Below are positions 13,461 through 46,066 of a stretch of 46,345 bases of DNA, piece after piece (position 1 is the stretch's first letter; each line of letters starts with the position of its first letter). The notes beneath the pieces are model-generated. The model was not told where the DNA came from and made no database searches. It saw only the letters and a list, made by a program, of their open reading frames with translations. This DNA is from Bolinopsis microptera (taxonomy: Eukaryota > Ctenophora > Tentaculata > Lobata > Bolinopsidae): NCBI RefSeq assembly GCF_026151205.1, contig NW_026971803.1:1-46345 (forward strand). Reading direction: 5' to 3'. The position numbers and the translations under genes are program-made.

Positions 13461-13850
13461 TTGGAAACGATGCAAACCAGGATCGGACTCCTATCAGAAA
13501 TAGTCGACCACCGGTCCAGCCTCCCTCAAACTCAAATGCCCTACCACTACCCCAGACCACATCCACCTCTTCAGCCAGGAACAGCGCTCCCACTATACCA
13601 CTACCAGCAGTTCCTACCGCCTCAGAGGATACACTGCACGTGCCCGTTATTCCTCATGCCTCGTCTTAAATGTCCAGTCCATGAATCCTGTGCATCAAGT
13701 GCGAGTATATGGGAAGTGCCAAAAATCTCAGCTCTTATTCAGGAGAAATCCAAAAACCACTCGTTACCGTTTATTGCACTTACGGAAACGTGGCTCAAGT
13801 CCTACATGTCAGACAAATACAAAATGTGCATCACCTCTTTCTCCTGCTGA
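13461..13850 (+). pseudogene. LINE endonuclease fragment, copy 1
   Basis: The translation contains PFIALTETWLKSYMSD, the beginning of the apurinic-type endonuclease of LINE ORF2 proteins, in which TETWL holds a metal-binding glutamate. It is preceded by CPVHESCASS and a Pro-rich stretch likely from the ORF1/ORF2 junction. The frame is lost after about 25 more residues, and no reverse transcriptase follows. This is a short 5' fragment of a CR1/L2-like LINE, different from the full copy at 40527-45474. Confidence 0.6.
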
Positions 13851-14494
13851 GCAGAACCTCCCCCTTAAAAGTAAACAAATCTGCATCGCCTCCCAACGAC
13901 AATCCAGATATATTAAGCAGCAGAGACAATCATTTAAGGAGACTTCGATATCTATCAGGATCATGATTATACTGCCTGAGAACTCAGCACTTCAGGATGA
14001 AACATATAATATTTGGTTTTCTCGATTTCATTCATATTTAGACAGAAGTCCGTGTAGATAATTGGTTATAGAATAATTGGATATAATTTTATGCGAAGTT
14101 GTGTCTGCGAAAATATACGTGTGAACTGGTCATCCCGCAAATGCTGAAAAAGTAGATGTTACCTATCATAAAATAACCGCTCGCACCGTACAGTGTACAC
14201 GACAGAGTTGTGACTGCGTTTACAAATTCTTTATCATATTGATATGTTGCCATGGCAACCGAAACTCCATCGGAAGATCGGCCTGTAAGGCATAATCATG
14301 ATAATACACAGTATCAAAACATTGCCATTGATATCATAGCAACATTCCAGAGATTAGATTATGTGTGTGTAAGAAAATGTATGTTATAGTATTATACAGT
14401 CTGCTAGAACATTCCGTTTACACATGGTGGCCGATAACAACTTGTTTAATTTATCTCCGAATTACACACAAATTTCTGAAAGTTTCGTAGACTT

Positions 14495-14722
14495 AAATCA
14501 ATTACAGAGGGTGTGGCTATTGGCCAGCCCCTCTATTTCACTATTATGGTTGAAACTATAAGAATACAGATTATATTGTTACAGTGATTTTACAAAAGTC
14601 GAAACAGTAAACACCAATTTGTAGGATACTTTAAATCACACCAAAATTGGTTCCAGAATGCAATGAAATCTGATGGCGTCTTTTCAGTGAAAAAGAGGCC
14701 ACACTCTCTGTAATTGATTAAA
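14495..14722. mobile_element. Small inverted-repeat element (MITE-like) in duplication copy 1
   Basis: TCAATTACAGAGGGTGTGGC at the left and GCCACACTCTCTGTAATTGA at the right form terminal inverted repeats around about 180 bp of non-coding sequence. The same unit recurs in duplication copy 2 at about 15738-15965. The target duplication is unclear. Confidence 0.5.
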
Positions 14723-14898
14723 GTTTACGAGACCTTTAGAAAATGAGTTATATAACTTGCAACTTAAACTAAGATAAATTGAGTATTTATACTCAATTTA
14801 TCTTAGTTGCATGAGTAATATATATATACTACCCACTATACCACTACCAGCAGTTCCTACCGCCTCAGAGGATACACTGCACGTGCCCGTTATTCCTC

Positions 14899-15093
14899 AT
14901 GCCTCGTCTTAAATGTCCAGTCCATGAATCCTGTGCATCAAGTGCGAGTATATGGGAAGTGCCAAAAATCTCAGCTCTTATTCAGGAGAAATCCAAAAAC
15001 CACTCGTTACCGTTTATTGCACTTACGGAAACGTGGCTCAAGTCCTACATGTCAGACAAATACAAAATGTGCATCACCTCTTTCTCCTGCTGA
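14899..15093 (+). pseudogene. LINE endonuclease fragment, copy 2
   Basis: Second copy of the PFIALTETWLK-containing fragment within the 1.24 kb duplication. The translation is identical to the overlapping part of copy 1 and ends at the same stop. Confidence 0.6.
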
Positions 15094-16073
15094 GCAGAAC
15101 CTCCCCCTTAAAAGTAAACAAATCTGCATCGCCTCCCAACGACAATCCAGATATATTAAGCAGCAGAGACAATCATTTAAGGAGACTTCGATATCTATCA
15201 GGATCATGATTTTACTGCCTGAGAACTCAGCACTTCAGGATGAAACATATAATATTTGGTTTTCTCGATTTCATTCATATTTAGACAGAAGTCCGTGTAG
15301 ATAATTGGTTATAGAATAATTGGATATAATTTTATGCGAAGTTGTGTCTGCGAAAATATACGTGTGAACTGGTCATCCCGCAAATGCTGAAAAAGTAGAT
15401 GTTACCTATCATAAAATAACCGCTCGCACCGTACAGTGTACACGACAGAGTTGTGACTGCGTTTACAAATTCTTTATCATATTGATGTGTTGCCATGGCA
15501 ACCGAAACTCCATCGGAAGATCGGCCTGTAAGGCATAATCATGATAATACACAGTATCAAAACATTGCCATTGATATCATAGCAACATTCCAGAGATTAG
15601 ATTATGTGTGTGTAAGAAAATGTATGTTATAGTATTATACAGTCTGCTAGAACATTCCGTTTACACATGGTGGCCGATAACAACTTGTTTAATTTATCTC
15701 CGAATTACACACAAATTTCTGAAAGTTTCGTAGACTTAAATCAATTACAGAGGGTGTGGCTATTGGCCAGCCCCTCTATTTCACTATTATGGTTGAAACT
15801 ATAAGAATATAGATTATATTGTTACAGTGATTTTACAAAAGTCGAAACAGTAAACACCAATTTGTAGGATACTTTAAATCACACCAAAATTGGTCCCAGA
15901 ATGCAATTAAATCTGATGGCGTCTTTTCAGTGAAAAAGAGGCCACACCCTCTGTAATTGATTAAAGTTTACGAGACCTTTAGAAAATGAGTTATATAACT
16001 TGGAACTTAAACTAAGATAAATTGAGTATTTATACTCAATTTATCTTAGTTGCATGAGTAATATATATATACT

Positions 16074-26380: not shown

Positions 26381-29300
26381 ATGTCAGCACAGCTTGAGCA
26401 AATTATCGCCCAACTGTTGGTCCCCGACAGCAATGCTATCCAAGCAGCAACGGTTAAACTCAAGGAGTTTTCTAAGGACCCTGCCATTGTACCTGCTCTG
26501 TGTCAAATTCTCAGGTAATTAATTAATTAATTAATTGTTTCTTCAATTTTACTATAAAAATGGAGATTTCACCCCAATTATTTACATTATACACCCTGAA
26601 CACAAAATTGTAGGCTGTAAAATGTTAAGACTTAATATTAGCTGTGTGCTGATATTTGAGACTTAAAAAAGATCAACGTATTTAAAGATAAGCACAGTGT
26701 GTAGATTTCTTTTGATATTTTTAGACCTCCTGCTCCTGGTTGAAATATTCTGGCTTGTTAACAATCTAATTATGAAGTATAATAGTCTATATATCAAGTC
26801 TATTTTATAGTCTTAGAAATTAATAACTACTAAATACTCAGCACATCGGAGAACAACACGATAAGACAGTATGCAGCCACCATACTGCGACAAAAGATTG
26901 AAAGAATTTGGTCAAAACTTGATAACGATCTGAAGAATGGAATCAAGACCATCTGCCTGCAGGTAGCTTCGCTGAATATTTCTTAATAATATTGGAGGAG
27001 GTTATCGACTGGCAAATTGTCGAAACTGCTTCAACGACTAATTTATATATGTAAACTTACAATACCGGCAAATCAATTATTAATTACCATTCTTTGTGAA
27101 GACTTAAACTGTACAAAATACATTGTAAACGTCTAGCGTGTAATTCAGTTACCCTTTTCTTTCTGGTATGTAGCTCAGAAATTCGTGTGTATCGTATTAA
27201 GGTGTATTATAGCTGGTGTAGCCCGCTGTAGCCGTATAAAATCAGATCATTTAAGAATGTAGATATTACTGATTGGGTAGAAATTCTAACTTTCCTTGTT
27301 ACGTACTCGAAAAATGAGACGAGGTAGATATTACTGATTGGGTAGAAACTTAAACTGTACAAAATACATTGTAAACGTCTAGCGTGTAATTCAGTTACCC
27401 TTTTCTTTTTCTCAGAAAATGGCTAGGAGTGGGACACACGCTTAGTAGCTCTTGCCTGTTTAGTCATTCATCCAGTGTTGCTCTCCCCATCGACAGCCTA
27501 ACCGACACTTGGAAAGTAGAAAAGTGCCGTCTCTTGCAGTCATATCAAACATCTCAGGATGCTTTGATCAGAGCGGTGCAACCCCAGGTGCGGTCTGGGA
27601 GAGTTTGGAAGGCAGATGCTCAGCTTCATGAAGCTGAAAGAGACTTGGTGTGTGAGTCAGTGCGAGGTATGGTGCAATCTCTTAGTAGAGCGGGAATTGG
27701 TTTCGGTGATTGGAAGAAGCCCTGGGAGAAGATGTCAGAAAAGGAGCAGCAGAGGGAGGTGTTGGATAGGGTTAAGGAGAACATCAGGAAGGAAAGAGAG
27801 GTGCAGTTGGGTACGTTGGAGATGCAGTCCAGGTGGGGTAATTGGAGAGAGCTGGTGACAAGGACTGACATGAGCTGGCACACGCTCTTCAAGTATGGGG
27901 ACTCATTAATCGGTTTTCTGCTTAGTGCTGTGTATGGCACGCTTGTTACACCAGCTTTAGCATCCAAGTGGAGCGAGGATGAGGATGGGATGTGCAAGCT
28001 GTGTGGTGACAAGTTGGGAACTGTGCCGCATATCCTGGCTGGTTGTCCTGTGGCACTAAGTCAAGGGAGATACCGATGGCGCCACGATAAGGTGCTTAAA
28101 CAAATAGCAGACCAGGTTAAATTCCATTGTGAGCGGAGAGTCAACAAGAGGAAGAGTTCGTGTGTCACTCGGAAAGCCATTGAGTTTGTCCCAGCAGGAG
28201 GGAGGTTTAAGGAGGTGAAGAGGTCGAAAGTCAGTGGGTTTGGGATTCTGAGTGGGGCCACTGATTGGATAGTATTAGCAGACCTGGATGAGCAGCTGAA
28301 ATTCCCGTCGGATATAGCAACGACCAGATTAAGACCAGATTTGGTTCTTTTCTCGAAAGCTTCCAAGAGAGTAATCTGGTGGGAGCTTACAGTACCGTCG
28401 GAAGAGAGAATAGCTGCATCCCATGAGCTGAAGCTTGATCGGTATAACAGTCTACAAGCGGAAATACAAGCTAATGGGTGGTCATGTTTCAGCTTTGCTG
28501 TTGAGGTTGGTGCTAAAGGTGTAGTCGCAGCAAGTTTGGAGTGTGCATCAAGGAAGATTGGTCTGACTGGGAGAGCCCTCAAGAAGTTGGTCAGAGATTG
28601 TGGGAAGGATGCAGCCCATTGTTCAAGATGGATTTATCTGCTGTCTAGGAAAAGAGAGTGGGAGATGAGAGCTGTTTGAGCTTTATGACTTCACCTAACA
28701 GCCAGAGGTGCCATAAGCTAACTCGTCGTAAATCGCGAGCTCTAGCAGGTATCCTCGGGTGATTGTCAGATCAGATGGTGGTCCAAGAGAGACTGCTGGG
28801 GCACCTGACAGAAAACCGTATCGCAATGAAAGCCCCGAAACGGTGTCAGGTTTGTGACTGAAGATTCTGATCAAGCTCAGGGTTGAGTCTACACAGTGTC
28901 GCCACTTGCCGATGCCATTTGATGCGAGAAGACACTGATGTAAGTGGGAAGTTATGTCTAAGAAACAGCGTGTGGTTCGGGTGCCGGTTGAACGCATGTA
29001 AAAGGGAGGGTATATCCGTATTTCGCTGCTAGTGATGCAGTCCTTGGCCCGGTAGCTAAGGCTTCCCCGTTTCTCGCTCATTTGTGCTCCGATGGGCTTG
29101 TGACCTCTGCGGGGGTCAAGTGCAGGATGAGGGACATGGCCGACCAGGAGAAGGTTGTTTTTGGGAGATAGAGCAGGGTTGGTTTGGTGTTGTGCCTTCG
29201 CAGTTTAACTGTATCTTTACCCTACAATACCGGCAAATCAATTATTAATTACCATTCTTTGTGAAGACTTAAACTGTACAAAATACATTGTAAACGTCTA

Positions 29301-31515
29301 GCGTGTAATTCAGTTACCCTTTTCTTTCTGGTATGTAGCTCAGAAATTCGTGTGTATCGTATTAAGGTGTATTATAGCTGGTGTAGCCCGCTGTAGCCCT
29401 ATAAAATCAGATCATTTAAGAATGTAGATATTACTGATTGGGTAGAAATTCTAACTTTCCTTGTTACGTACTCGAAAAATGAGACGAGGTAGATTAAGTA
29501 ATAAAATATTCCCAATATTTGCGATGATCAACATCAAATCTTCATCAGTCTCCAATTATCTGTTAAATTTATAACAGTGTTATACACTTGATCATGTAAC
29601 AGATACCAGGCTTTTTTCTCCAAATCTCATTTAACTAATCAAATGAATTAATTAACTAATTAATTCCTATTCCTGGCAGGTTCTACAAAGTCAAGTAACA
29701 AAAGAAGTGAGAAACTCAGTGACTGCTGTAATCTGTGTTATTACCAAACACGAGTTCAGTTCGTGGCCCGAGCTGCTCAACTTCATCACTGCGGCTTGTT
29801 ACAGTGACAACCTCCCTGCTAAGGAGGTGAGTTGGTTAATATGTTAAATATGTTAAATATGTTAAATATGTTAAATATGGTAAATATGTTAAATATGTTA
29901 AATATGTTAAATATGTTAAATATGTTAAATATGTTAAATATTTTAAAATATTTTGAATATTTTAAATATGTTGAACATGCAACCAGTGCTATTTAGTCAT
30001 GTTATCAGTTAAAGTATATTAATTCGTTTCCTGATAAGAGCCTTTTCGCAACAAACGGGAAAAAACATATAAATTAATTTTACTCTCTTCACAACTTATT
30101 GCCCGTGTAATATATAAGAACTCGACGTACTTTAGTCTTAATCAAGGTTCTAAATTACACTCCCCTCCAGCTGGGACTGTACATGTTGGGAGTAGTATCA
30201 GAGTCTGTGGGGGTGGAGATGGAACCTCACTTTAACTCCATGTTCGAGCTATACGCCAACTGTCTCTCTCACCACAACCAGCCAGAGGTTTGCACGACTT
30301 TTTTTAAATTAAAAAAAAAAAGTTACAAAAATCGTTTCGGTTAGGAGAACTTAGTTGGGAGGGAGAGGGGTGGTCGGTGCTGGGCCGCCTGGTAGATTGA
30401 TAGCTTAATTAATAATTATTGATAACTCTCAAAAGTTTGAGACGAGGTCTACTATAATAAAATTGTAGACTGCACTTATCTCCACTGATTAGGTCGTTTA
30501 ATCTTACGGACAGTTATTATTATTATAAGATACTTGATTGTACCTAAAAACTCTCATCCATTAAATAAACACAGGTGCTGCATCTAACATGTGTTGCCAT
30601 GAGTCAACTCGTTCCTTACCTTGGCTCCAACCATGCTCAGAAGTTTGGTGTTCTTCTGCCTAATGCTATCAATGCTATACAGATATTGCTTGGTAAGAGG
30701 TCTAAATACGATTACTAATGTCTACATTATTTTCGCAAAAATATTCTTAAATAATTCTTTGAAAATGTTATTAAATTTGAAAATGCACACCAAGTGCGGG
30801 CAGATACCATGTCTTCTCGTGGTGTCTCGTGGTGTCTCGTAGTGTATCGTGGTGACGTTTAAACCCCTCAGGCGTGGACGAAGATAAGGCGTGCACCTCA
30901 TTCGAACTATTCGACTCTCTGTTGGAGTGTGAGGTTGCGATTATTGTACCTCATTTAACCTCACTTCTGACACTTTGTTTGGAAGTAACTAAGAACACTG
31001 CATTTGATGATGGAACCAGGGTCAAGTTCATGACATTCTTGAGTTGGTTGGTGTCGACGAAGAAGAAGGCTCTGCAAGTTAGTTCAAATACAAGATGTGG
31101 TCTTTCTTTTGAACTCAAAAAAAATACTTGATAGATAGTTACTAGTACGTAGATGTATTATCGACAATGTTCTCACGAGCTTATGATTAAATCAGTAACT
31201 ACTCAATTAAATCAGTAACCAATCAGTAACCAATCAGTAACCAATCAGTAACCAATCAATTACAGAAACTACAACTGGTAACCACGATCCTTGATGTAAT
31301 CCTACCTCTGATGGCTTGTCCAGATATAGATGAAGATGAAGATACGTCTCAGAATCCTGGATCTTTTGCTGGAAGCGTCCTGGACACTCTAGCTCTCCAT
31401 CTGCCTAGCGGTAATTATTTTGTCGAGTGATTTATCGACCAATTATCAGTTGATTAGAATCTAGATCAAGGTTGGCATGCCTTATTTGATATTTAAGGTC
31501 TTTGAATGGTGGACT

Positions 31516-31547
<32 letters not shown>

Positions 31548-34500
31548 ACTGCTATTGGTGCTACTGGGCTGATTTCTCGCCTCAAATTACTTGTTAGTAG
31601 AAAGTAATAAAGCCCCAAAACATCTCTTAAAATCCACTTTTATCTTGTAATTGATCAGATCTATATTTCGGTGAAAGAAGCAATGGTTTTACATCAAAGT
31701 TATAATTGATCAGTCTTACTTAATCACATGAACTTATCTAATCATCCTACCAAACCTCCCAATCAAGGCCTTATAAGCTTATACCTGACAGATTTTATCT
31801 AATTCTACTAGTTATCATTACATCATCAATTATCTTGAATTGTGAACTCAACTTCATCGCGACTAGCGTTATGTTGTACACGTTTTGCATTCTTTTAAAG
31901 TATAATGAGCCATTCTCCGATCACGAACAATTTGAGCATGAGAAATCTGCTGTTAATCATCTCGTCTAATCATCTCTGTTTATTTAAAACAGTATTATCA
32001 TTAAATTTCCTCTCTTGAACTCTGGACATCCTTATTCGTTCAGATAAGCCACGATAATCACGCTCATCATTCATGTTAGAGAAAAATTTTCGAGTAATAT
32101 GCGTGTAATATTAGAGTAATATTATTAGAGTAATATGGTTTTGCTACTCAAACATATAATTTGAAATTTATAAATTACGTTATTTTTCAGATAAGCTGGT
32201 ACCGATCCTGTACAAGAACTACATCCTACCACTCATGTCATCCGGACAACCTCTCGAGAGGAAAGCTGGTAAGTTTCATTGGTATTGGTTTACTTAATGG
32301 CTTATCTAGCGTCTAATCAGTACTGATTACAACCATCATAGCTAGCCGCATGCCCGGCTGCGCGGAACAAAATTGCGCGAAAAATAGTGTGCTTTTTTGT
32401 CATCGTTGATGTAAAAAGCAAAATGCTAAACCATAGCTTTAAATCGCATGCTTGCGCGGCGCAATTGTAGCCTCTGCGACGTAATAGGTTCTCACTTCTA
32501 GTGATGCAATCTTCACGTCTTGCCATTGTGAGTTTTGCATGCTTAAATATGTATTAATTGTTAAACAATAAACTCTCACTCCAGGATTAACAGCCTTGGC
32601 TGTGGTAGCGGAAGGGACATGCGAGTACATGCTGGAGCACATGATGCAAGATTGTCTCAAGTTGGCCGGTAAATTGGTCTTGGTGGTGTTGATATAATCC
32701 GTGTACAGCGTGCTGTCATAGATTAATTTTCTACTCCTGTCTTGAGTTTTGTGATATAGACCTCTGAGTTGTTTAACTATGGAATGTGCTGCTAGCATTA
32801 GGTAATAACAGCACATATTTTCACAACATTTTGCATTGAATGTGAAACTGATTATCAGGAAATGGGTTATCTGACGAGGCTCCAGAAGTAAGGAATGCTG
32901 CCCTCTACGCTCTGGGTCAATTCGCTGAGCACTTCCAACCCGATATCGTCAAGTACAGCAATGAGGTAAATATTGTTACAGTTTTAACCCTGCTATGGGG
33001 TGGTTCACATATTACGTCATCATTTTTTTGGAACATTTTTACCCCCCCCCCCCTCCGTAATCAGTTTTACACATAGCTATTGAGTCAAAATTACACTAGC
33101 GTAATCATTCGAAACCCCCCCGGCCCCCTCAGCTGATTACGTAATATGTGAACGACCCCAATGGGTTTCGGTGTGATATTGATCGAATACGACACACATT
33201 TTTGGGGTTTTTCTCATTTCAAACCACTATGTCAATCATCTAAAATCTATCACGGAGCCCTTAAAACAACTAACAAAGGATATTTGAAGTAGTAAAACTA
33301 CTACTTTGCAGTGTTGATTAGCCTCGCACAAATATACTGTAAGGTGTACTACATACTAACAGTGATCTGATTCTGCGTCCTTTACAGTATCATCTATATC
33401 ATATTATATAGCTGACTCTAGCATTTACCGATAAATTGCTGCGTAAAATTTAACTTTATTTATTAATCTATTTATACTGAAATTTATCAGATCCTGCCGA
33501 TTCTATGTCAGAAGATCGCGGAGGAGATGAGTACCCAAAGTGCGGCCCTCACCCGAACCTACTACGCTCTGGAGTCCTTCTGTGAGAACATGGGAGAGAA
33601 CATTGTGCCTTATTTGCCGGATCTTGTGGAGAAACTCGTGGTTATGATAGCTCACAGTCCTACTGTTCACGGTTAACACTTATACTTTCTTGTTAATGTT
33701 TATTAACTCGGGTTATGATAGCTCACAGCCCTACTGTTCACGGTTAACACTTATACTTTCTTGTTAATGTTTATTAACTCGTGGTTATGATAGCTCACAG
33801 CCCTACTGTTCACGGTTAACACTTATACTTTCTTGTTAATGTTTATTAACTCGTGGTTATGATAGCTCACAGCCCTACTGTTCACGGTTAACACTTATAC
33901 TTTCTTGTTAATGTGTATTTAACTTGTGGTTATGATAGCTCACAGCCCTACTGTTCACGGTTAACACTTATACTTTCTTGTTAATGTTTATTAACTTGTG
34001 GTTATGATAGCTCACAGCCCTACTGTTCACGGTTAACACTTATACTTTCTTGTTAATGTGTATTTTCAATTAACGTGGAGAAACTTGTGGTTATGATAGC
34101 TCACAGCCCTACTGTTCACGGTTAACACTTATACTTTCTTGTTAATGTTTATTTTCAATTAACGTGGAGAAACTTGTGGTTATGATAGCTCACAGCCCTA
34201 CTGTTCACGGTTAACACTTATACTTTCTTGTTAATGTGTATTTTCAATTAACGTGGAGAAACTTGTGGTTATGATAGCTCACAGCCCTACTGTTCACGGT
34301 TAACACTTATACTTTCTTGTTAATGTTTATTTTCAATTAACGTGGAGAAACTTGTGGTTATGATAGCTCACAGCCCTACTGTTCACGGTTAACACTTATA
34401 CTTTCTTGTGGTTATGATAGCTCACAGCCCCACTGTTCACGGTTAACACTTATACTTTCTTGTGGTTATGATAGCTCACAGCCCTACTGTTCACGGTTAA

Positions 34501-36574
34501 CACTTATACTTTCTTGTTAATGTTTATTAACTTGTGGTTATGATAGCTCACAGCCCTACTGTTCACGGTTAACACTTATACTTTCTTGTTAATGTGTATT
34601 TTCAATTAACGTGGAGAAACTTGTGGTTATGATAGCTCACAGCCCTACTGTTCACGGTTAACACTTATACTTTCTTGTTAATGTTTATTTTCAATTAACG
34701 TGGAGAAACTTGTGGTTATGATAGCTCACAGCCCTACTGTTCACGGTTAACACTTGGGGGACACTTATACTTTCTTGTTAATGTTTATTTTCAATTAACG
34801 TGGAGAAACTTGTGGTTATGATAGCTCACAGCCCTACTGTTCACGGTTAACACTTATACTTTCTTGTTAATGTTATGATAGCTCACAGTCCTACTGTTCA
34901 CGGTTAACACTTATACATTCTTGTTAATGTTTATTTTCCATTAACGTGGAGAAACTTGTGGTTATGATAGCTCACAGCCCTACTGTTCACGGTTAACACT
35001 TATACTTTCTTGTGGTTATGATAGCTCACAGTCCTACTGTTCACGGTTAACACTTATACTTTCTTGTGGTTATGATAGCTCACAGCCCTACTGTTCACGG
35101 TTAACACTTATACTTTCTTGTGGTTATGATAGCTCACAGCCCTACTGTTCACGGTTAACACTTATACTTTCTTGTTAATAGCTCACAGCCCTACTGTTCA
35201 CGGTTAAGGGGGGGGGGGGGGGGGGGGGGGGGGGGTTCACCCTGATTTTTTTGTGAAACTTGGTTTCGAGATAGTAGTTGACCAACAAACTAGGACCAGT
35301 GACCGAACTTTTGAGGGGGTCCCGGACCCCAACCGCCAAACGGTGCCCGCGGGGCAGCCACGCCCATATTTGGTCCAAATTAGGCCCAATTTAGCCAAAT
35401 ACCCTGAACATGCCCAAAATCCAGATTTGAGGTGCTCTACTTGTAGCTAGTGGTCCCTTGAACTCGTATATGAATTTCCATCAAGATTGGACAAAAAATG
35501 ACTGAGTTATGAGCAAAAAACCATATGACCATATTTGGGCATACGCACCAAATTTGATCGATTTTGGCCCATATATTAGTCAAATATCAATATTTTTGAA
35601 TGAAACCAACTTTCTATGGAAGGTAAGCCTATACTACACATTCTCTATGATTATCAGCTCAGTATCTACCCAACTGTGGATTCTGTGTTCAAATAATCGC
35701 AAAAAATGAACAAAATTGCCCATATCTCAGTTCGCGATATTTGCAAAACTGATTTCGCTCAAAACAATAGAACTCAATAGGGTTTCAATATTTTTGCCTG
35801 AAAATTTCAGAATCAACGTAGAATTGCATTTCGACCTTAAGTTTTGGAACAGAATTTTGAGTTAGGCCTTTAAAAAAATTTGGCGGCCAAATTCTGAATT
35901 TCGCATTGCGAATTTTGGAATTTGGCCGCTAAATTTTTTTAAAGGCCTAACTCAAAATTCTGTCTCAAAACTTAAGGTCAAAATGCGATTCTACGTTGAT
36001 TCTGAAATTTTCAGGCAAAAATATTGAAACCCTATTGAGTTCTATTGTTTTGAACGAAATCAGTTTTGCAAATATCGCGAACCGAGATATGGGCAATTTT
36101 ATTCATTTTTTGCGATTATTTGAACACAGAATCCACAGTTGGGTGGGTACTGAGCTGATAATCATAGAGAATGTGAAGTATAGGCTTACCTTCCATATAA
36201 AGTTGGTTTCATTCAAAAATATTGATATTTGACCAATATATGGGCCAAAATCAATCAAATTTGGTGCGTATGCCCAAATATGGTCATATGGTTTTTTACT
36301 CATAACTCAGTCATTTTTTGTCCAATCTTGATGGAAATTCATATACGAATTCAGGGGACCACTAGCTACAAGTAGAGCACCTAAATTCTGGATTTTGGGC
36401 ATGTTCAGGGTATTTGGCTAAATTGGGCCTAATTTGGACCAAATATGGGCGTGGCTGCCCTGCGGGCACCGTTTGGCGGTTGGGGTCCGGGACCCCCTCA
36501 AAAGTTCGGTCACTGGTCCTAGTTTGTTGGTCAACTGCTATCTCGAAATTAAGTTTCACAAAAAAATCAGGGTG

Positions 36575-36610
<36 letters not shown>

Positions 36611-38310: not shown

Positions 38311-38835
38311 TAGGGTTTGCAACCGATATTATCGGCGATAATTTGTGAAAAAGTCATTATCGGTTATCGGCGATAATTTCTAACCGATAAACCGATAATA
38401 TCATCATTTTTTTTCTTCAAAAATTATTTCCAAAAGGTTCGAAATTCCGTAAAATCACGATTAAAGTCATCTTACACACTATATGACTGATGACGTCATA
38501 ATTAGTTTCAAAACAACACACGATCCACGCCCCGCGTTTGTATTTGATCGCTCATTTGCTCAAATTGTTAATTGATTAACGTGCTTGGTTGTTCCCTGTC
38601 GTGTCCTGTGAGTGTAAAAACTGTTTTATTTGAATTTGATATGGCAACCAACGAGATCTGGAAACATTTCAAAAAAATAAATAAATAAATAAATAAATAA
38701 AGTCAATTTTTACAGCACAGCAATATATATCTAAATATCAGATCCTCTGTAATCATAATGTATAAAAAAAGGAGCTTTTCTCTGTGCTGAAGGATGAATC
38801 AAGGCAGATCATGGTTCTGTTAGCAGGCCACCCTA
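38311..38835. mobile_element. hAT-like element candidate
   Basis: The left end TAGGGTTTGCAACCGATATT is followed by repeated CCGATAATATCGG-type palindromes, as in subterminal regions of hAT elements. A possible right end, GGCCACCCTA, lies at 38835. The matching inverted part is short (TAGGGT) and I find no 8 bp target duplication, so the right border is tentative. Confidence 0.35.
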
Positions 38836-39444
38836 GTTATGGACAATACATATATATAAAATAATTAAATTATAATTTTAAAATTGTGTCAAGATTGAAC
38901 TAAAACATAACTCAGGGTAAAATAGACGTATTCCCTTCGTCAAATTAACTATTTACAATACTAAACTTAAACGAACTCCGGGTAAAATAAACGTAATCCC
39001 TTTGTCAAACTTGCTATTTACAATAAGTTAATAAATTAATACGGTTGAAAATTATTTCATATTCAATAACAATGTAGCATCAATATAATTGATACAAATG
39101 AGGAGCATACAGTGAGAATTGCACATAACAGGAGGACTGGAGGTATGGAGCAATAATGATTGACAGTGCACCTTTCCACTGATGTTCCTAATTTCCTGTA
39201 ATAGCTTAATAGGCATGGAAATACTTTGATTGCAGGGGATAGATTGGATTCACTTATGTACTGAGATAACTTAACCGAAATAACATAAGTCATAACTGCC
39301 TAGATACATTGGCTAGTGTTGGGTGGGATCATGAATTTATCGTAAGAGTTATCCCCTTGGTAATTCTCATCAGTTAGCAACATATTCATAAGAGTTTCTT
39401 TGTATAACTTAGAAAATTTCTTAACGTCGTCACACTCTCTAAGG

Positions 39445-40552
39445 CACAGTGGGCTGTGAGTGGGGGTCATGCTAGCATAGGGTATTTTAGACCATCACAC
39501 ATGCCCCTAACTTTGTTTCTAAGGTAATTTGGGTACAAAAATACGATTCCAATCATTTACAGGGCCGAAAATGTCTCAGAAAAAATTTTTGGGCCGATTT
39601 TAAGCAATCTTGTAGTCCAAAAATAGGAGGCTGATCCCAGGAAAAGTTGTTTTTTTAGAGGTTTAATCAATTTTAAAGCTCTTTTATGAACTGTAAACGA
39701 AGGAAGCTATCTTAGGAACTCAAATCTTTTTGAATTATGAAAAAATATTGATCAGAACAAAAGTTGTGCCCATTTATATGACCAAAATTTTCTGAAACAC
39801 CAAAATTGTTCCTGTTATTTTCAAAAATTTCGTTTAAAATCACGATTTTTTGGATTTTTATCAATTTTAACTATAATAATTGTGATATTTTGATTTTTCA
39901 TCCATATGCATCTGGTCTAGGATGCAAAAAATGCCACAAACATGGAGAATAACTAAATATGTCAATTTAATAGCAAAATTGAGCTCATAAATTATCTAAA
40001 AATGCAGCAAATTTTACCCAATTTTTGAGTTTCTTAATTTTGTAAACAGAGTTCCCCCAAAAGTTCCCAAAGTGATTCTTATTGCATCTGATAGGGAATT
40101 GTCTAAGCTTTCTGATGATACCATGCATTATACCGAACTATTGCAAACCAACAACGATTTCTGTCGTTAAATACCCCAAAAATTGCCTAAAATACACGCC
40201 ATAAAAAAGGCGCGGTCAAAAATCAGGTGAAAATGTTAAAGTCACACAGTTTTTTTTAGATGGCTGAGTATTCTTAAGTACTATACTGTATTTCAATTAT
40301 TAAAAACTGCCTTGATCAGGCATTTTAGCCCAAAATAATAAATATTAGGCAATTTTTGGCTAAAAAAGGCAAAATTTCTTGACAGTGAAAAATGCTATTT
40401 TTTCACGCGACGCCATTTTGGCATCTTGCAAAGTTTTTAATTACGGTTTTTTGCATGAAATCGGGCTAGCGTTTTACAATAAGGAAAGCTTATTTTCAAA
40501 GAAATTTAAGAAAGTCGATTTTAGGCCTATGCTAGCATGGTAGCCCACTGTG
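39445..40552. mobile_element. Transib-like non-autonomous element with RSS-type CACAGTG ends
   Basis: It begins CACAGTGGGCT at 39445 and ends AGCCCACTGTG at 40552. A second inverted block, CATGCTAGCATAGG, lies inside each end. TAAGG is duplicated on both sides (39440-39444, 40553-40557). Removing the element and one TAAGG reconnects LINE ORF2 in frame with about 45 further codons, ending at a stop at 39300-39302, which confirms the borders independently. CACAGTG plus a 5 bp duplication is the pattern of Transib/RAG-type transposition. There is no coding sequence inside, so it needs a transposase from elsewhere. Another CAC-ended superfamily remains possible. Confidence 0.72.
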
Positions 40553-43433
40553 TAAGGGACTTTGGTAATATGTTCCAGGCCTTAGTTCCTAGATAGTTAA
40601 ACTCCTTGTGAGATCTTGATTTAGGAGTATAAAGATTGCAGTTTTCTGCCTCACGTGATCCACCAGAAATATACGAGAATTTCCCGATAAAATGCTTTGG
40701 ACATGTTTCATTGATTATACGGTACATATATGAGCTAAGATGAACCTGTCGTCTCAAATGGAGAGGAAGCCATCCCATATTTTTGTATACATTAACCGAC
40801 CTCTCTCTGATGTTTACATCTAGGGCTATTTTAGCAACCTTTTTGTACATGATATCTAACTCTCCTAGTCGTTTTTTATATGTTCTTGACCAGATGGTGT
40901 CTAAGTAGTCAAAATGTGGCAACATAAGTGCATTAGCAAACATCTTCCTGAACTTAAGAGGGAGAAGTTTTTTTGATCTATACATAGCACCAATTCTTTT
41001 GGATATCTTTTTCTTAATGTTATCAATATGTTCATTAAATGTCAATCTGCTGTCAACTATAAGTCCAAGGTACTTATGGGATTTAGTTTCACAGATTACC
41101 AAAGTAAGGTCATCACAAATTTCAACAAGGATGGCATCAAGGTTAGGCTTAGAGTCAAGGATCATTAGTTTTGTTTTTTCATTATTCAGGGATAGTTTAT
41201 TAGCCTGAAGCCATCTGATAACTAATTTCAACTCTTGTTTGATGTTACCATAGTTTCCTCTAGATATATTGTCAAAATATAATGCACCGTCATCAGCAAA
41301 TAGATAAGGTTTAGAAAATAGGCATGCATTAGGCAGGTCATTGATAAAAATGCTGAATAGAATTGGTCCTAATATACTTCCTTGAGGCACTCCAGAGTTC
41401 AATGAATGTAAACTGCTTATCCTACTCCCAACTCTAGTTTGCTGTAATCTATCTGTGAGGAAGCTCCTAAACCAGCTCAATGCAGTATCTTTTATTCCAT
41501 AATGCTTCAGCTTTTGAATGAGAATATCATGGTTAACAGTATCAAATGCCTTTCTGATGTCCAGGAAGATAATTGCAGGATGCTTGGCACTGTTCTTAGC
41601 AGTAAATATACGATCAAACAGATCTAACATGAGATAAGTTGTAGAGTGATCTTTACGGAAACCATATTGATGCTCTGAAAGTATTCCCTTTTCATCAAGA
41701 TATTGAGTCAGTTGGGAGTTCACACAAAATTCGATGCACTTTCCAAGAATCGGTAAAATTGAGATTGGTCGATAATTACTAGGATTCTCAGTATCACCAT
41801 CCTTATGGATTGGGGTGACTTTTGCAACCTTGCAGCTGTTTGGCATGATGCCACTGGATAAACTCAAATTTACAAGATGTGTTAATGGAGCAATAAATGC
41901 AGGTAAAATTTGTCTAAACACTCTCAATGGTATATGATCATTAGTGGATTTGCTACAAGGGATACTTGCCACATAGTCTAAGATATTGGACTCAGTTATT
42001 TCAGTAAAGCTATTCAAGCTGGTCTCGTTGTCAATCTGCTCATTTTGTAGATAAGATAGAAATTCATTTTCATTTTCCAGCTGCACTTCTGCTTGGATCT
42101 TTGGACCTATTTCAGCAAAATATTTATTGGTGGTTTCAGCATCAAGATTGTTATTGATATTGTTAGCTTTAACAGGCAGATTTGATGCTGTCTTTATCGT
42201 TTTCCATACACCCTTTAGATCATTCATGGCACACTTGGCTTTCAGTTCTGTTGCTAAGTTAGTCTTCCTATTAATTCTAGACAAATAGGTTGAATAGTTT
42301 CTCTGCCGTTTATATGCCATCCATAATGAGTCACATTTATTACAGTGTATAAGACCATTTGGATGTATACGTCTGTTCTTGTTGTGTGTTAAAAATTTAC
42401 GGTAAAGTTTCCCTTTCAATTTCTTACTTTCTAAAAATTCTGGAGATGGCTTATGGATGTAATCACTATGGCACTTAATTTGTTTAATTGGACAGAAGTG
42501 ATCATAGTAGTGATCAATATGTTCGTTTAAACCATCAACTGCATCATTCAGACTAGTTGAATCTATTATTGGTCTATAATCACAGGTTTCCAAAAATTCT
42601 TTAAGAGCAGTAACATTCATTTTGCTGTGATCTCTTATTAGTAACTTCTTGAATTTTGAGGCCTTATGCACATTGAAATCGACAATGAACTTTACGACCT
42701 GATGATCTCCTATACAATCATCAAGGACTTTGCAGTCAAGAAACTTGGAGTAAGTGTTTGTTATGACAACATCGATTGTGGTCTTTGTGATTCTGTTTCC
42801 TAGTTTAGCAATGCGGGTAATATCCTGAACTACCTGTACCATTCCAAACATTTTCATTGTAATGTCTAATTTCTTATAGTTCATACTGCTGATGTTGTTT
42901 TGGTCTACATTTACATCACCCAGCCAAATAACATTCTTACTTCCTATACTCATCATGCAGTCTGTCATATAATCTAAAAATTTGTCAAGAGGACTAAACA
43001 ACTCAGATCTGTAGAAACAGCAGATGAAAATATTGCAATCTGTAAGATGGATCCAAATAGCCTCGATTTGGTCATATTGCAAAACTAAGTTTAGTTGAAT
43101 CATTTTAAACTTTATGTGCTCACTGATGAGAATGCCACATCCCCCATGACCATTGTCGTTAGGACGGTCTTTGCGGATAAAAGTAAAATTCTTGGGTAGG
43201 TTTGGACTGGCTGAGTCAATATCCGACTTAAGATTTGTTTCATTCAGGCATAAAACATCTAATTTCTCTTTCCAGATTAGATCTTGGATTTCAAGACATT
43301 TTGGCATACCTGTTAGTCCTCCCTGCATGTTGCAATGTCCCACTGCAAGCTTTTTGGCATGGTATGAAACTGTGATTTTACTAATGCACGGGTTAATGCA
43401 AGAACTGCTGTGAGAGCATGAAAATTTTTCCAA
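40527..43433 (-). CDS. LINE ORF2: endonuclease and reverse transcriptase
   Basis: 968 residues as it stands. About 30-250 is an apurinic-type endonuclease with N35, E65 (LNET), D173/N175 (LGDVN), D221 and D243/H244 all present. About 530-800 is the reverse transcriptase, with catalytic aspartates D625 (FLDIRKAFD) and D714/D715 (FADD), and GVPQGSILGP. The tail has the KAWNILP block. Together they nick the target and copy the element's RNA there. The final ~10 residues are read from the inserted Transib-like element and end at its TAG. The original ~45-codon tail survives on the far side (39300-39439). The clade is CR1/L2/Crack-like by motif style; not resolved further. Confidence 0.9.
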   Translation of the reverse strand: MEKFSCSHSSSCINPCISKITVSYHAKKLAVGHCNMQGGLTGMPKCLEIQDLIWKEKLDVLCLNETNLKSDIDSASPNLPKNFTFIRKDRPNDNGHGGCGILISEHIKFKMIQLNLVLQYDQIEAIWIHLTDCNIFICCFYRSELFSPLDKFLDYMTDCMMSIGSKNVIWLGDVNVDQNNISSMNYKKLDITMKMFGMVQVVQDITRIAKLGNRITKTTIDVVITNTYSKFLDCKVLDDCIGDHQVVKFIVDFNVHKASKFKKLLIRDHSKMNVTALKEFLETCDYRPIIDSTSLNDAVDGLNEHIDHYYDHFCPIKQIKCHSDYIHKPSPEFLESKKLKGKLYRKFLTHNKNRRIHPNGLIHCNKCDSLWMAYKRQRNYSTYLSRINRKTNLATELKAKCAMNDLKGVWKTIKTASNLPVKANNINNNLDAETTNKYFAEIGPKIQAEVQLENENEFLSYLQNEQIDNETSLNSFTEITESNILDYVASIPCSKSTNDHIPLRVFRQILPAFIAPLTHLVNLSLSSGIMPNSCKVAKVTPIHKDGDTENPSNYRPISILPILGKCIEFCVNSQLTQYLDEKGILSEHQYGFRKDHSTTYLMLDLFDRIFTAKNSAKHPAIIFLDIRKAFDTVNHDILIQKLKHYGIKDTALSWFRSFLTDRLQQTRVGSRISSLHSLNSGVPQGSILGPILFSIFINDLPNACLFSKPYLFADDGALYFDNISRGNYGNIKQELKLVIRWLQANKLSLNNEKTKLMILDSKPNLDAILVEICDDLTLVICETKSHKYLGLIVDSRLTFNEHIDNIKKKISKRIGAMYRSKKLLPLKFRKMFANALMLPHFDYLDTIWSRTYKKRLGELDIMYKKVAKIALDVNIRERSVNVYKNMGWLPLHLRRQVHLSSYMYRIINETCPKHFIGKFSYISGGSREAENCNLYTPKSRSHKEFNYLGTKAWNILPKSLTQWATMLA

Positions 43434-43599
43434 TTTATGCTGCTATAAACTTGTCAGAATAAGATAAATTGCAGAACTGGCAAATTTGTATGAGATAATA
43501 ACAAAACTTTCTAAAACTTCAATAAACATGAGGAACAATGTGTAATTATCCCTTATCTAGAATCTAGATGAAATAAATGTTAACAATCTTTCTGAAAAT

Positions 43600-45474
43600 T
43601 CAAACTTGCTTATGGGCCCAATACTTCAGAAATTTAGCAAGTCGAATAACACCGCTTGTATTGAGGTGACAGTTATCAGATATTTTTGCAGATGGTCTGG
43701 CAAAATAAAATTCTTTCCTGAATCCACTTCTATTATAGTTAAATAAATTATGGGTGCTAATGTAATTAAAACAAGAATCTTTGCTACACATATCCTTAAT
43801 AACCTTATTCAGCTCTGCCACAACATCATTGCGGCCTTTTGTACTCCTGGGAAGAATATTGAGAACATTAATTGTTGCATTCGGATACACTGACTTGAGA
43901 TAATTTAAGAGATTACTAATGTCACCCGCTGCATCCTTCAGTGACTTTGAGCCAAAATAGACTGTGTTCACATTATTAGTTCCTGTCATAATATAAATAA
44001 TAGATGGGGATGGAACGGAGTGTAGGTCAGTTTTTAGTTTATTTAACATTACTTTGGCATCAGCCCCAGGATAAAACAGTTTACTAGCACTAACAGTGGA
44101 CGATGATAACTTGTCCGCATCAAGAAACCTGAACATAGAGCTGCTTATGAATAGGACAGACTTTTGTGAAGCTTTGGCTGGCTGTTTGCAAACTGAGAGT
44201 GCAGGTGAAGAAGAGTCTGTCAGTTTGTGTCCTGAATGAGGGATGGGTGGGGGCGGTGAACGCAGACCAAACTCAGTTGACTGAGTGATCCTAGGGGGCT
44301 TCATCAGTCTTAGGGTGATGCTGATCCGGGGTTCATCACACATTTCGTCTGGCAGTATCTCATGTTGAAAGTCAGCCTGAGACAATTTGGACATGATGAA
44401 GACATCTCCATGCTGAAGCTGCACAGAGCCCACAACTTCATTGCTGCCGTTTGATCTAATTTGCAGTGTTCTCGTCGCACCAAGTGAAATGGTTACAATA
44501 TCAGAGTGTTCTACAATACATGATTCAGAATCGCTATGAGCTGGCATGAACTCTGCTCCAGTTTCATATAGATTGACGAGAATACTATTGTGTCTGAAAT
44601 TGGGTAATATCACATTAATGTAGGAGCTGAGTTTAGCAAGGTAGGAATCATTGTGTACACTTTTTGGGTCATGTGTTGCACCTGAATACTCATAGGGAAA
44701 GTCACCAAAATAAACCGATTTCCTGTTTTTAAAACCGTGACTGAACTCAAGTTCTTCCATTAATAGATCAAGTGAAAATTTAGAGAATGGACCATCATCT
44801 AGTAGGGTAACTGGTTTCACTGGTGATGGGGAACAAGTTACAGATATATTCATTGGCCCCGGTGTTATAGGATCGTAGACAGGGGCAGGGACCAAGTTTG
44901 GATATTTGTCTCTGGGCTTAGGGGTGTTGATCCGTGATTCACCAGTAGCAGTAGATACAGGGAGATCAGACACATCATCCTCGTCTGCCATAACCTCGTT
45001 AACAACAATCTCACTGATAACAATCTCGTTTCCAACAACCTCCTGTGGAACAATCTTGTCCACGACATCGTTGTCAACAAACAAACTGTCCGATACAACA
45101 TCTTCCACAACAATGTCATCTACATCAAACGCTTCTACTTGATTGATAACAACGTGTGACTGAGGGGTAATGGTTATGATCTCACATTCAATCTCCTCTG
45201 ATAAGTTCGGCAGCAAATTTTCACACTTAAAACTCTGTTCTTGTATTTGAGTTTGATCTGATATGAGACTATCATTGTACTGAGCAATGAGATCACTAGT
45301 TCTGATAATTTCATTCAATAAAGACAACTTTTTTTCTAAAAAGTCAATCTTGATGTCTTTTGACAGACAATTGTTACAGTTCTCTGATTTTTCAGACTGG
45401 AATGAAAAGTTCAAATGTTCTAAAGGGCGCTCACAAAAGTGGAGACTAATGTCTGAGCTCTGATTATTTGACAT
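43600..45474 (-). CDS. LINE ORF1: AlkB-type dioxygenase fused to SGNH hydrolase
   Basis: 624 residues. About 33-75 looks coiled-coil forming, 100-175 is acidic and Val-rich. About 230-395 is an AlkB-like 2-oxoglutarate/Fe(II) oxygenase: N301 and Y303 of NLY, H313-x-D315 and H371 for iron, and R383...R389 (RISITLR) for 2-oxoglutarate. All the AlkB signature residues are present. About 436-624 is an SGNH/GDSL hydrolase: block I is degenerate except its serine (SSSM, S446), block III is GTNN (498-501), and D600/H603 (DNCHLN) complete the triad. An esterase in ORF1 is known for CR1-type LINEs; the AlkB domain is the unusual part. AlkB proteins remove alkyl groups from nucleic acid bases, so it may repair or edit the element's RNA or cDNA; that is inference. 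It ends 166 bp before ORF2. Confidence 0.87.
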   Translation of the reverse strand: MSNNQSSDISLHFCERPLEHLNFSFQSEKSENCNNCLSKDIKIDFLEKKLSLLNEIIRTSDLIAQYNDSLISDQTQIQEQSFKCENLLPNLSEEIECEIITITPQSHVVINQVEAFDVDDIVVEDVVSDSLFVDNDVVDKIVPQEVVGNEIVISEIVVNEVMADEDDVSDLPVSTATGESRINTPKPRDKYPNLVPAPVYDPITPGPMNISVTCSPSPVKPVTLLDDGPFSKFSLDLLMEELEFSHGFKNRKSVYFGDFPYEYSGATHDPKSVHNDSYLAKLSSYINVILPNFRHNSILVNLYETGAEFMPAHSDSESCIVEHSDIVTISLGATRTLQIRSNGSNEVVGSVQLQHGDVFIMSKLSQADFQHEILPDEMCDEPRISITLRLMKPPRITQSTEFGLRSPPPPIPHSGHKLTDSSSPALSVCKQPAKASQKSVLFISSSMFRFLDADKLSSSTVSASKLFYPGADAKVMLNKLKTDLHSVPSPSIIYIMTGTNNVNTVYFGSKSLKDAAGDISNLLNYLKSVYPNATINVLNILPRSTKGRNDVVAELNKVIKDMCSKDSCFNYISTHNLFNYNRSGFRKEFYFARPSAKISDNCHLNTSGVIRLAKFLKYWAHKQV

Positions 45475-46066
45475 AGTTATATTATCAAGAGTTCAATGTT
45501 CAGAAGCACAATAAACACTGTAAACGCAATACCTTCAGTCCAGATAGTAGTTTTGATGAGAATAGTTTTGATGAGAATAGTTTTGATGAGAAGGAGGAGG
45601 ATGAGTAATCTTCAAGTACACTCACAGCAGTCCTTTGCACGTCAACACTTACGCTCGTCTATCATATCTCATACCTCAAATTATTTGTTATATAGTAGTG
45701 TTGAAAGTATTAAAACTAAAAAAAAAGAGGGAGACAACGTTACCTGCATACATTGTAAGAAGTCTTTCGAAGGTACAACTGCCAAGAGGTCTTACACTAG
45801 TCTAGGGAGTAGCTAAGGATCCATTGGATCTATGTGATCTCCTCGGTCGACTCAGCCGAATGATAGGAAACTTAATTGAGGGTTAAATGAGGAGGGGTAC
45901 CTGTTAAAAGTTCAAGAAACTTCCTAGGATACCCCTTCAGTGCATACTGTAAACATTGTACTATTAACTATTAACTATTAACACTAGTTTGTGGTATCAC
46001 TCGCGAGTTAAGCTTGCTATTGAAAATCCAGCCACTAAAAGTGCTAACTCGTCCACATCCCCCCAG
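45475..46066. other. LINE 5' UTR and downstream spacer
   Basis: Contains three copies of a TTTTGATGAGAATAG unit (45551-45590) and an inverted pair around GAGGGGTAC...GGATACCCCTT (45892-45945). There is no clear gene. A plus-strand frame at 45496-45816 has a CIHCKKSFEG patch but no complete domain. Confidence 0.45.

Follow-up and report, generated by a model that had tools for sequence, protein, structure and literature searches.

The window analysed here, a 46,345-nucleotide stretch of the genome of the ctenophore Bolinopsis microptera (contig NW_026971803.1), contains a long interspersed nuclear element (LINE) whose first open reading frame (ORF1) encodes a probable coiled coil, an AlkB dioxygenase domain of the ALKBH2/3 type and an SGNH hydrolase domain. 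We give a probability of roughly 0.5 to the scenario in which AlkB, usually paired with SGNH, serves the mobile DNA of ctenophores as a common module against damage or silencing, one that was captured once, spread over LINE lineages, was passed to (or from) Helitrons, and protects the single-stranded intermediates of both transposon classes. The anatomy of ORF1 and its conservation are near certain. The parts of the element are as follows.

38671..45717, minus strand: the entire LINE copy, made up of LINE sequence (about 5.9 kb) and an insert (1.1 kb), with ends about 99% identical to those of other copies
45475..45717, minus strand: 5' untranslated region, from the shared 5' end to the ORF1 ATG
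43600..45474, minus strand: ORF1, 624 amino acids; coiled coil, then AlkB, then SGNH
45241..45375, minus strand: residues 34-78, predicted by the AlphaFold2 model (block pLDDT 67-87) to form a long helix, probably a coiled coil
44296..44826, minus strand: AlkB (ALKBH2/3-type) dioxygenase domain, residues 217-393
43603..44166, minus strand: SGNH hydrolase domain, residues 437-624; S446, G470, N500, D600 and H603 conserved
40553..43328, minus strand: proximal part of ORF2 (endonuclease and reverse transcriptase), starting at the ATG of full-length copies
39445..40552, no strand assigned: transposon insertion in ORF2, 1108 bp, with inverted ends and TAAGG direct repeats at 39440-39444 and 40553-40557
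39300..39444, minus strand: distal part of ORF2, beyond the insertion; the frame end matches full-length copies
38671..39299, minus strand: 3' untranslated region, ending in a (TTTA)n tail

The initial annotation, made from the letters alone, described a complete AlkB domain in front of an SGNH domain within a LINE ORF1, and this layout is confirmed by Pfam and profile searches, an AlphaFold2 model and residue conservation. The predicted AlkB fold is a double-stranded beta-helix with the H-x-D...H iron triad and the R...R 2-oxoglutarate ligands in place, and a chance match is rejected by the profile, the fold and the repeated copies. Of the signature residues listed at that stage, the five catalytic ones (H313, D315, H371, R383 and R389) are kept together in 122 of 125 transposon-type AlkB domains, with P0027, P0084 and P0086 as the exceptions, and E317 and G332 are kept in all 125. 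This set counts four loci twice and takes in database proteins whose transposon type was assigned from similarity only. That these ligands persist despite a mean column identity of 18% across the ORF1 alignment argues against the idea that the AlkB fold is a catalytically dispensable scaffold kept for RNA binding rather than chemistry. ORF1 proteins bind RNA elsewhere, and the variable NxY motif described below would fit such a role, which nevertheless seems very improbable.

The SGNH domain is conserved as well, with S446 and H603 each kept in 68/69 sequences, N500 and D600 in 69/69, and G470 nearly invariant. Its best match by sequence is 4c1b (ZfL2-1; 9.4e-11), which is not among the best 50 structural matches listed; the Pfam Lipase_GDSL_2 match of the window protein is below its cut-off. 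The order of coiled coil and SGNH domain, the latter with its S, G, N, D and H residues, identifies an esterase-type (type IV) ORF1. The coiled coil and esterase are shared with the type IV ORF1 of ZfL2-1 (PMC3905857, PMC4120745), the difference being AlkB: the accessible part of the ZfL2-1 paper makes no mention of AlkB or a dioxygenase (PMC3905857). In the CR1/L2/Jockey ORF1 survey, as far as its available text goes, the esterase type is confined to two groups, both exclusively vertebrate, the main text contains none of the terms AlkB, dioxygenase and 2OG, and the AlkB-SGNH ORF1 is a missing type (PMC4120745). Among the group-2 relatives, 9 of 34 have an N-terminal PHD finger (Pfam), as do the PHD-containing CR1/L2 types of the same survey, from which they differ in that AlkB and SGNH follow the PHD finger (PMC4120745, in part). 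Five ORF1 protein relatives have an organism name, all Mnemiopsis leidyi, a pattern that fits a ctenophore host better than a cnidarian one; scans of viral contigs for relatives gave none that was confirmed.

The element belongs to a family that is young and recently active. A six-frame search of the genome (264.65 Mb, 232 contigs) with ORF1 returned at least 81 matches (71 of 990 candidates scored), including 20 copies, the window's among them, in which residues 1-622 or 1-624 are free of stops at 99-100% identity. The unit common to these copies is about 5.9 kb long and ends in the (TTTA)n tail. The 17 copies in the full-length alignment (the window copy, L015 and L024 were left out) diverge by 0.44% on average (range 0.12-0.88%), and their 400-bp upstream flanks have no BLAST similarity to each other. 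The 624-residue ORF1 is present in 19 of the 20 copies, the end being shifted in L025, and 15 combine it with a 971-residue ORF2, which in the other copies begins MQGGLT. Near-identical copies with both frames whole thus indicate recent activity, and the suggestion that the window holds an intact frame in a young copy is borne out for the family and for ORF1 only, because ORF2 of the window copy is broken by an insertion.

Dispersed copies with a common 3' end, a simple-repeat tail, no long terminal repeats (LTRs) and unrelated flanks characterize the element as a LINE, as does an ORF2 with an apurinic/apyrimidinic-type endonuclease and a reverse transcriptase. No long terminal direct repeats were found in the 20 of 35 window repeat families looked at, and target-site duplications of the LINE copies were not cleanly established. 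The window ORF2 matches Pfam RVT_1 at 6e-37 and Exo_endo_phos at 2.6e-4 (21.3 bits, below the Pfam cut-off of 24.5). The LINE is a candidate member of the CR1/L2-like group; its reverse transcriptase was compared pairwise within the host genome. The 1108-bp insert cuts ORF2 near its end: the C-terminus as listed stems from the end of the insert, and the frame of the LINE itself terminates beyond it. The site is uninterrupted in 18 of 19 other copies. The insert has inverted ends beginning CACAGTG and 5-bp target duplications, which are hallmarks of Transib elements. The 5' untranslated region contains a 20-nt repeat in three copies at 15-nt spacing (45543-45592), and the 3' untranslated region a 52-nt repeat in two copies at 65-nt spacing (38909-39025). 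In a separate observation, P0100, an ORF2 with 81% identity to that of the window element, is filed under a metagenome-assembled genome of the bacterium Tenacibaculum, so this assembly probably holds animal DNA.

The ORF1 is repeated in 20 near-identical copies dispersed over the genome, and it is found again in other families and among proteins of different origin; the probable host ALKBH2/3 genes sit at other loci. The chance fusion of a host ALKBH gene next to a LINE, or an assembly artefact, is therefore refuted and next to impossible; nothing was found in its favor.

The domain is also not confined to one kind of element. The genome contains at least 151 AlkB matches, about three host genes among them, and those that were read come from Helitrons and from LINEs of three or four lineages at the least. 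Two adjoining stretches, L033 and L035 (G000:C10:16874200-16883600), form one 3388-codon frame for a Helitron protein, in which SGNH (6.2e-6, below the Pfam cut-off) and AlkB (3.5e-21) are followed by DUF6570, then by Helitron_like_N (4.1e-23) and a PIF1 helicase (3.1e-22), with the HxH motif recognized by eye. A HUH Rep and a PIF1-type helicase in one protein identify a Helitron by its protein domains, and the pair of SGNH and AlkB is accordingly present in a class of transposons that move without reverse transcription. L034 (G000:C9:11089500-11094500) has a 2225-codon frame with AlkB and DUF6570. L036, L038, L042 and L053 lie in frames of 868-3226 codons, and their AlkB stretches are similar to this L033/L034 Helitron type. 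A separate kind of LINE, L056 with L060 (G000:C7:5564400-5572600), has AlkB in ORF1, and its reverse transcriptase bears only a distant resemblance to that of the window element. The SGNH of this kind is doubtful: the motifs are there, a profile search gives a weak match (Prob 22.8, E 9.1e-4), and the Pfam scan shows no SGNH.

The tree, rooted on ALKBH2, was built from 67 representatives of 131 AlkB domains over 172 columns, with ALKBH2 and ALKBH3 as the ALKBH types included. LINE and Helitron domains, taken together, make up a single clade of 59 of the 61 transposon-type domains (support 100/97), apart from the host genes L029 (ALKBH2-like), L030 and L031 (ALKBH3-like), human ALKBH2 and ALKBH3, and P0066. 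The comparison with host ALKBH genes proposed at the outset thus separates the two groups, and the topology favors one capture, long ago, of an ALKBH2/3-like gene. For the two L056-kind rows, the grouping with the other transposon AlkBs is weak (93/73), so that a second, independent capture may have occurred there. The Helitron AlkBs are drawn inside the LINE-type clade; the alternative of LINE monophyly is not rejected (approximately unbiased test, p 0.38), so that transfer from LINE to Helitron and the reverse are both possible. A side observation concerns P0066, possibly viral, in which AlkB is fused to a PC4-like domain and no SGNH was seen.

The substitution patterns show that the AlkB domain is kept under purifying selection, as far as can be judged from sequence comparison. 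Within the window family, 19 copies with the 624-residue ORF1 were compared with a neutral model that weights transitions 4x over transversions and expects replacement and silent changes at 2.54 to 1. Replacement and silent changes number 3 and 8 in the AlkB stretch (residues 230-395; p 0.0028), 8 and 9 in SGNH (p 0.029), 16 and 9 in the N-terminal residues 1-229 (p 0.27 against neutrality), and 4 and 2 in the linker 396-437; ORF2, in 15 copies, has 18 and 23 (p 1.3e-4). Among 34 divergent, non-independent AlkB pairs from other families, 29 gave a ratio of replacement to silent rates (dN/dS), all within 0.04-0.36, the other five having no silent difference. The L056 kind has the lowest range (0.04-0.07), followed by 0.05-0.31 for the Helitron type, 0.15 for families B and C, and 0.18-0.36 for the other LINE-type groups. 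The selection anticipated from the intact frame is thus found, and a single recent capture without selection, named beforehand as one fatal outcome, is rejected by AlkB in many elements, silent-biased change and the kept residues.

Several points weigh against the explanation set out below. The Asn of the NxY motif, N301 in the window, is N in 52 of 125 transposon-type domains and T, H, S or Q in the other 73, so that AlkB activity may differ between families. The contrast between AlkB and the N-terminus is not significant (Fisher p 0.07), and the choice of copies with an unbroken ORF1 may inflate the selection signal from the 19 copies. The AlkB counts cover AlkB-bearing elements only and say nothing on loss of the domain among LINEs, and AlkB may have a separate role in Helitrons.

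Among the AlkB types with solved structures, the LINE domain is nearer to ALKBH2/3 than to the others. The closest fold to the window model is ABH2, ALKBH3 equals ABH2 in the profile search and ties with it for a second model, and ALKBH5 is distant by profile and fold. An affinity to ALKBH2/3 would favor lesions of the 1-methyladenosine and 3-methylcytidine (m1A/m3C) type over N6-methyladenosine (m6A), and the odds appear balanced for the proposal that AlkB strips m1A/m3C from the element's single-stranded intermediates, with substrate and role both inferred. The roles put forward in the initial annotation, protection or editing of the RNA or cDNA or the countering of a host base-modification defence, are likewise possible. 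ALKBH3 has a preference for mRNA and single-stranded DNA, and the erasure of m1A from RNA is ascribed mainly to it (PMC11431407, in part). In the proposed mechanism, ORF1 would be a probable coiled-coil scaffold with two enzymes, an ALKBH2/3-type demethylase and an SGNH esterase, and would coat the element RNA. By oxidation, AlkB would take off methyl groups at the Watson-Crick face, as in m1A and m3C, from the RNA template and the first-strand cDNA of LINEs and from the single-stranded DNA of Helitrons. A LINE RNA-protein particle with its own AlkB could then clear blocks before target-primed reverse transcription; Watson-Crick methyl groups block polymerases, so their removal would give more full-length copies. 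SGNH would probably serve membrane or lipid contact, by analogy with the proposal for ZfL2-1. The reverse transcriptase of the non-LTR element R2 is impeded by m1A and N2,N2-dimethylguanosine (m2,2G), and AlkB treatment removed m1A and m3C, modestly changed the capture of intact tRNA and increased that of most 3' tRNA halves (PMC12140624, in part).

The preference of ABH2 for double-stranded DNA (PMC11431407, in part) would instead suit an ALKBH2-like enzyme that acts on modified or damaged bases in the target site or the new insertion and keeps insertions repaired or unmarked. Helitrons, which move as DNA and also have AlkB, would agree with this; the equal standing of ALKBH3, an enzyme of single-stranded DNA and RNA, in the profile search and in the second model speaks against it, and we consider such a genomic role unlikely. 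Similarly unlikely, and if anything slightly more so, is an enzyme that clears m6A from the element's own mRNA or from host mRNAs and so evades epitranscriptomic silencing. This possibility has a precedent in the orchid Phalaenopsis, where the ALKBH5-like protein of a Ty3/Gypsy element demethylates m6A in vitro (PMC9289625), but it accounts poorly for Helitrons, the LINE domain is of the ALKBH2/3 type, and mammalian L1 retrotransposition is reported to be promoted by m6A writing and suppressed by ALKBH5 (PMC7873242; both papers in part). Descent from an ALKBH5-like m6A eraser is disfavored by profile and fold, ALKBH5 lying outside the tree set.

The Phalaenopsis Gypsy element resembles the system described here in being a retrotransposon with an AlkB-superfamily domain kept through rounds of replication. 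It differs in that it is an LTR element of one orchid lineage with a separate, ALKBH5-like frame (PMC9289625, in part), whereas the domains described here are ALKBH2/3-like, reside in LINE ORF1 and in Helitrons, and share a protein with SGNH. The AlkBs of plant RNA viruses (Alphaflexiviridae, Betaflexiviridae and Closteroviridae, as cited in the accessible part of PMC9289625) likewise belong to the parasite and have a proposed role in RNA repair, but these are viruses, not transposons, and were set beside the LINE AlkB by description only. Cellular ALKBH2 and ALKBH3, the nearest cellular relatives found, share the fold and catalytic residues but are repair genes outside the transposon clade. 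The supposition that no such LINE layout had been described is upheld within the literature searched: no AlkB in a LINE or Helitron appears in the titles or the beginnings of abstracts of the papers listed, most subscription papers and Repbase being outside the search, and the AlkB passages in the accessible text of candidate papers concern host genes.

The same enzyme in two unrelated transposon classes would suggest that both face a common obstacle, for example damage by alkylation or a defence by which the host modifies bases. If AlkB is active, the element supplies its own eraser, and the effect of base methylation on transposon copying becomes directly testable. The LINE would also be a natural pairing of reverse transcriptase and AlkB, two kinds of enzyme already used together in RNA-sequencing chemistry for reading methylated RNA (PMC12140624, in part).

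Elsewhere in the window, a 1.24-kb tandem duplication (13589-16073) has 99.4% identity, and a 1.4-kb stretch (35208-36604), a 96% match to the reverse complement of itself, adjoins satellite-like repeats (33626-35207). Two 272-bp direct repeats (27058-27329 and 29223-29494; 99.6% identity), about 2 kb apart, could be the ends of a young LTR-like element.
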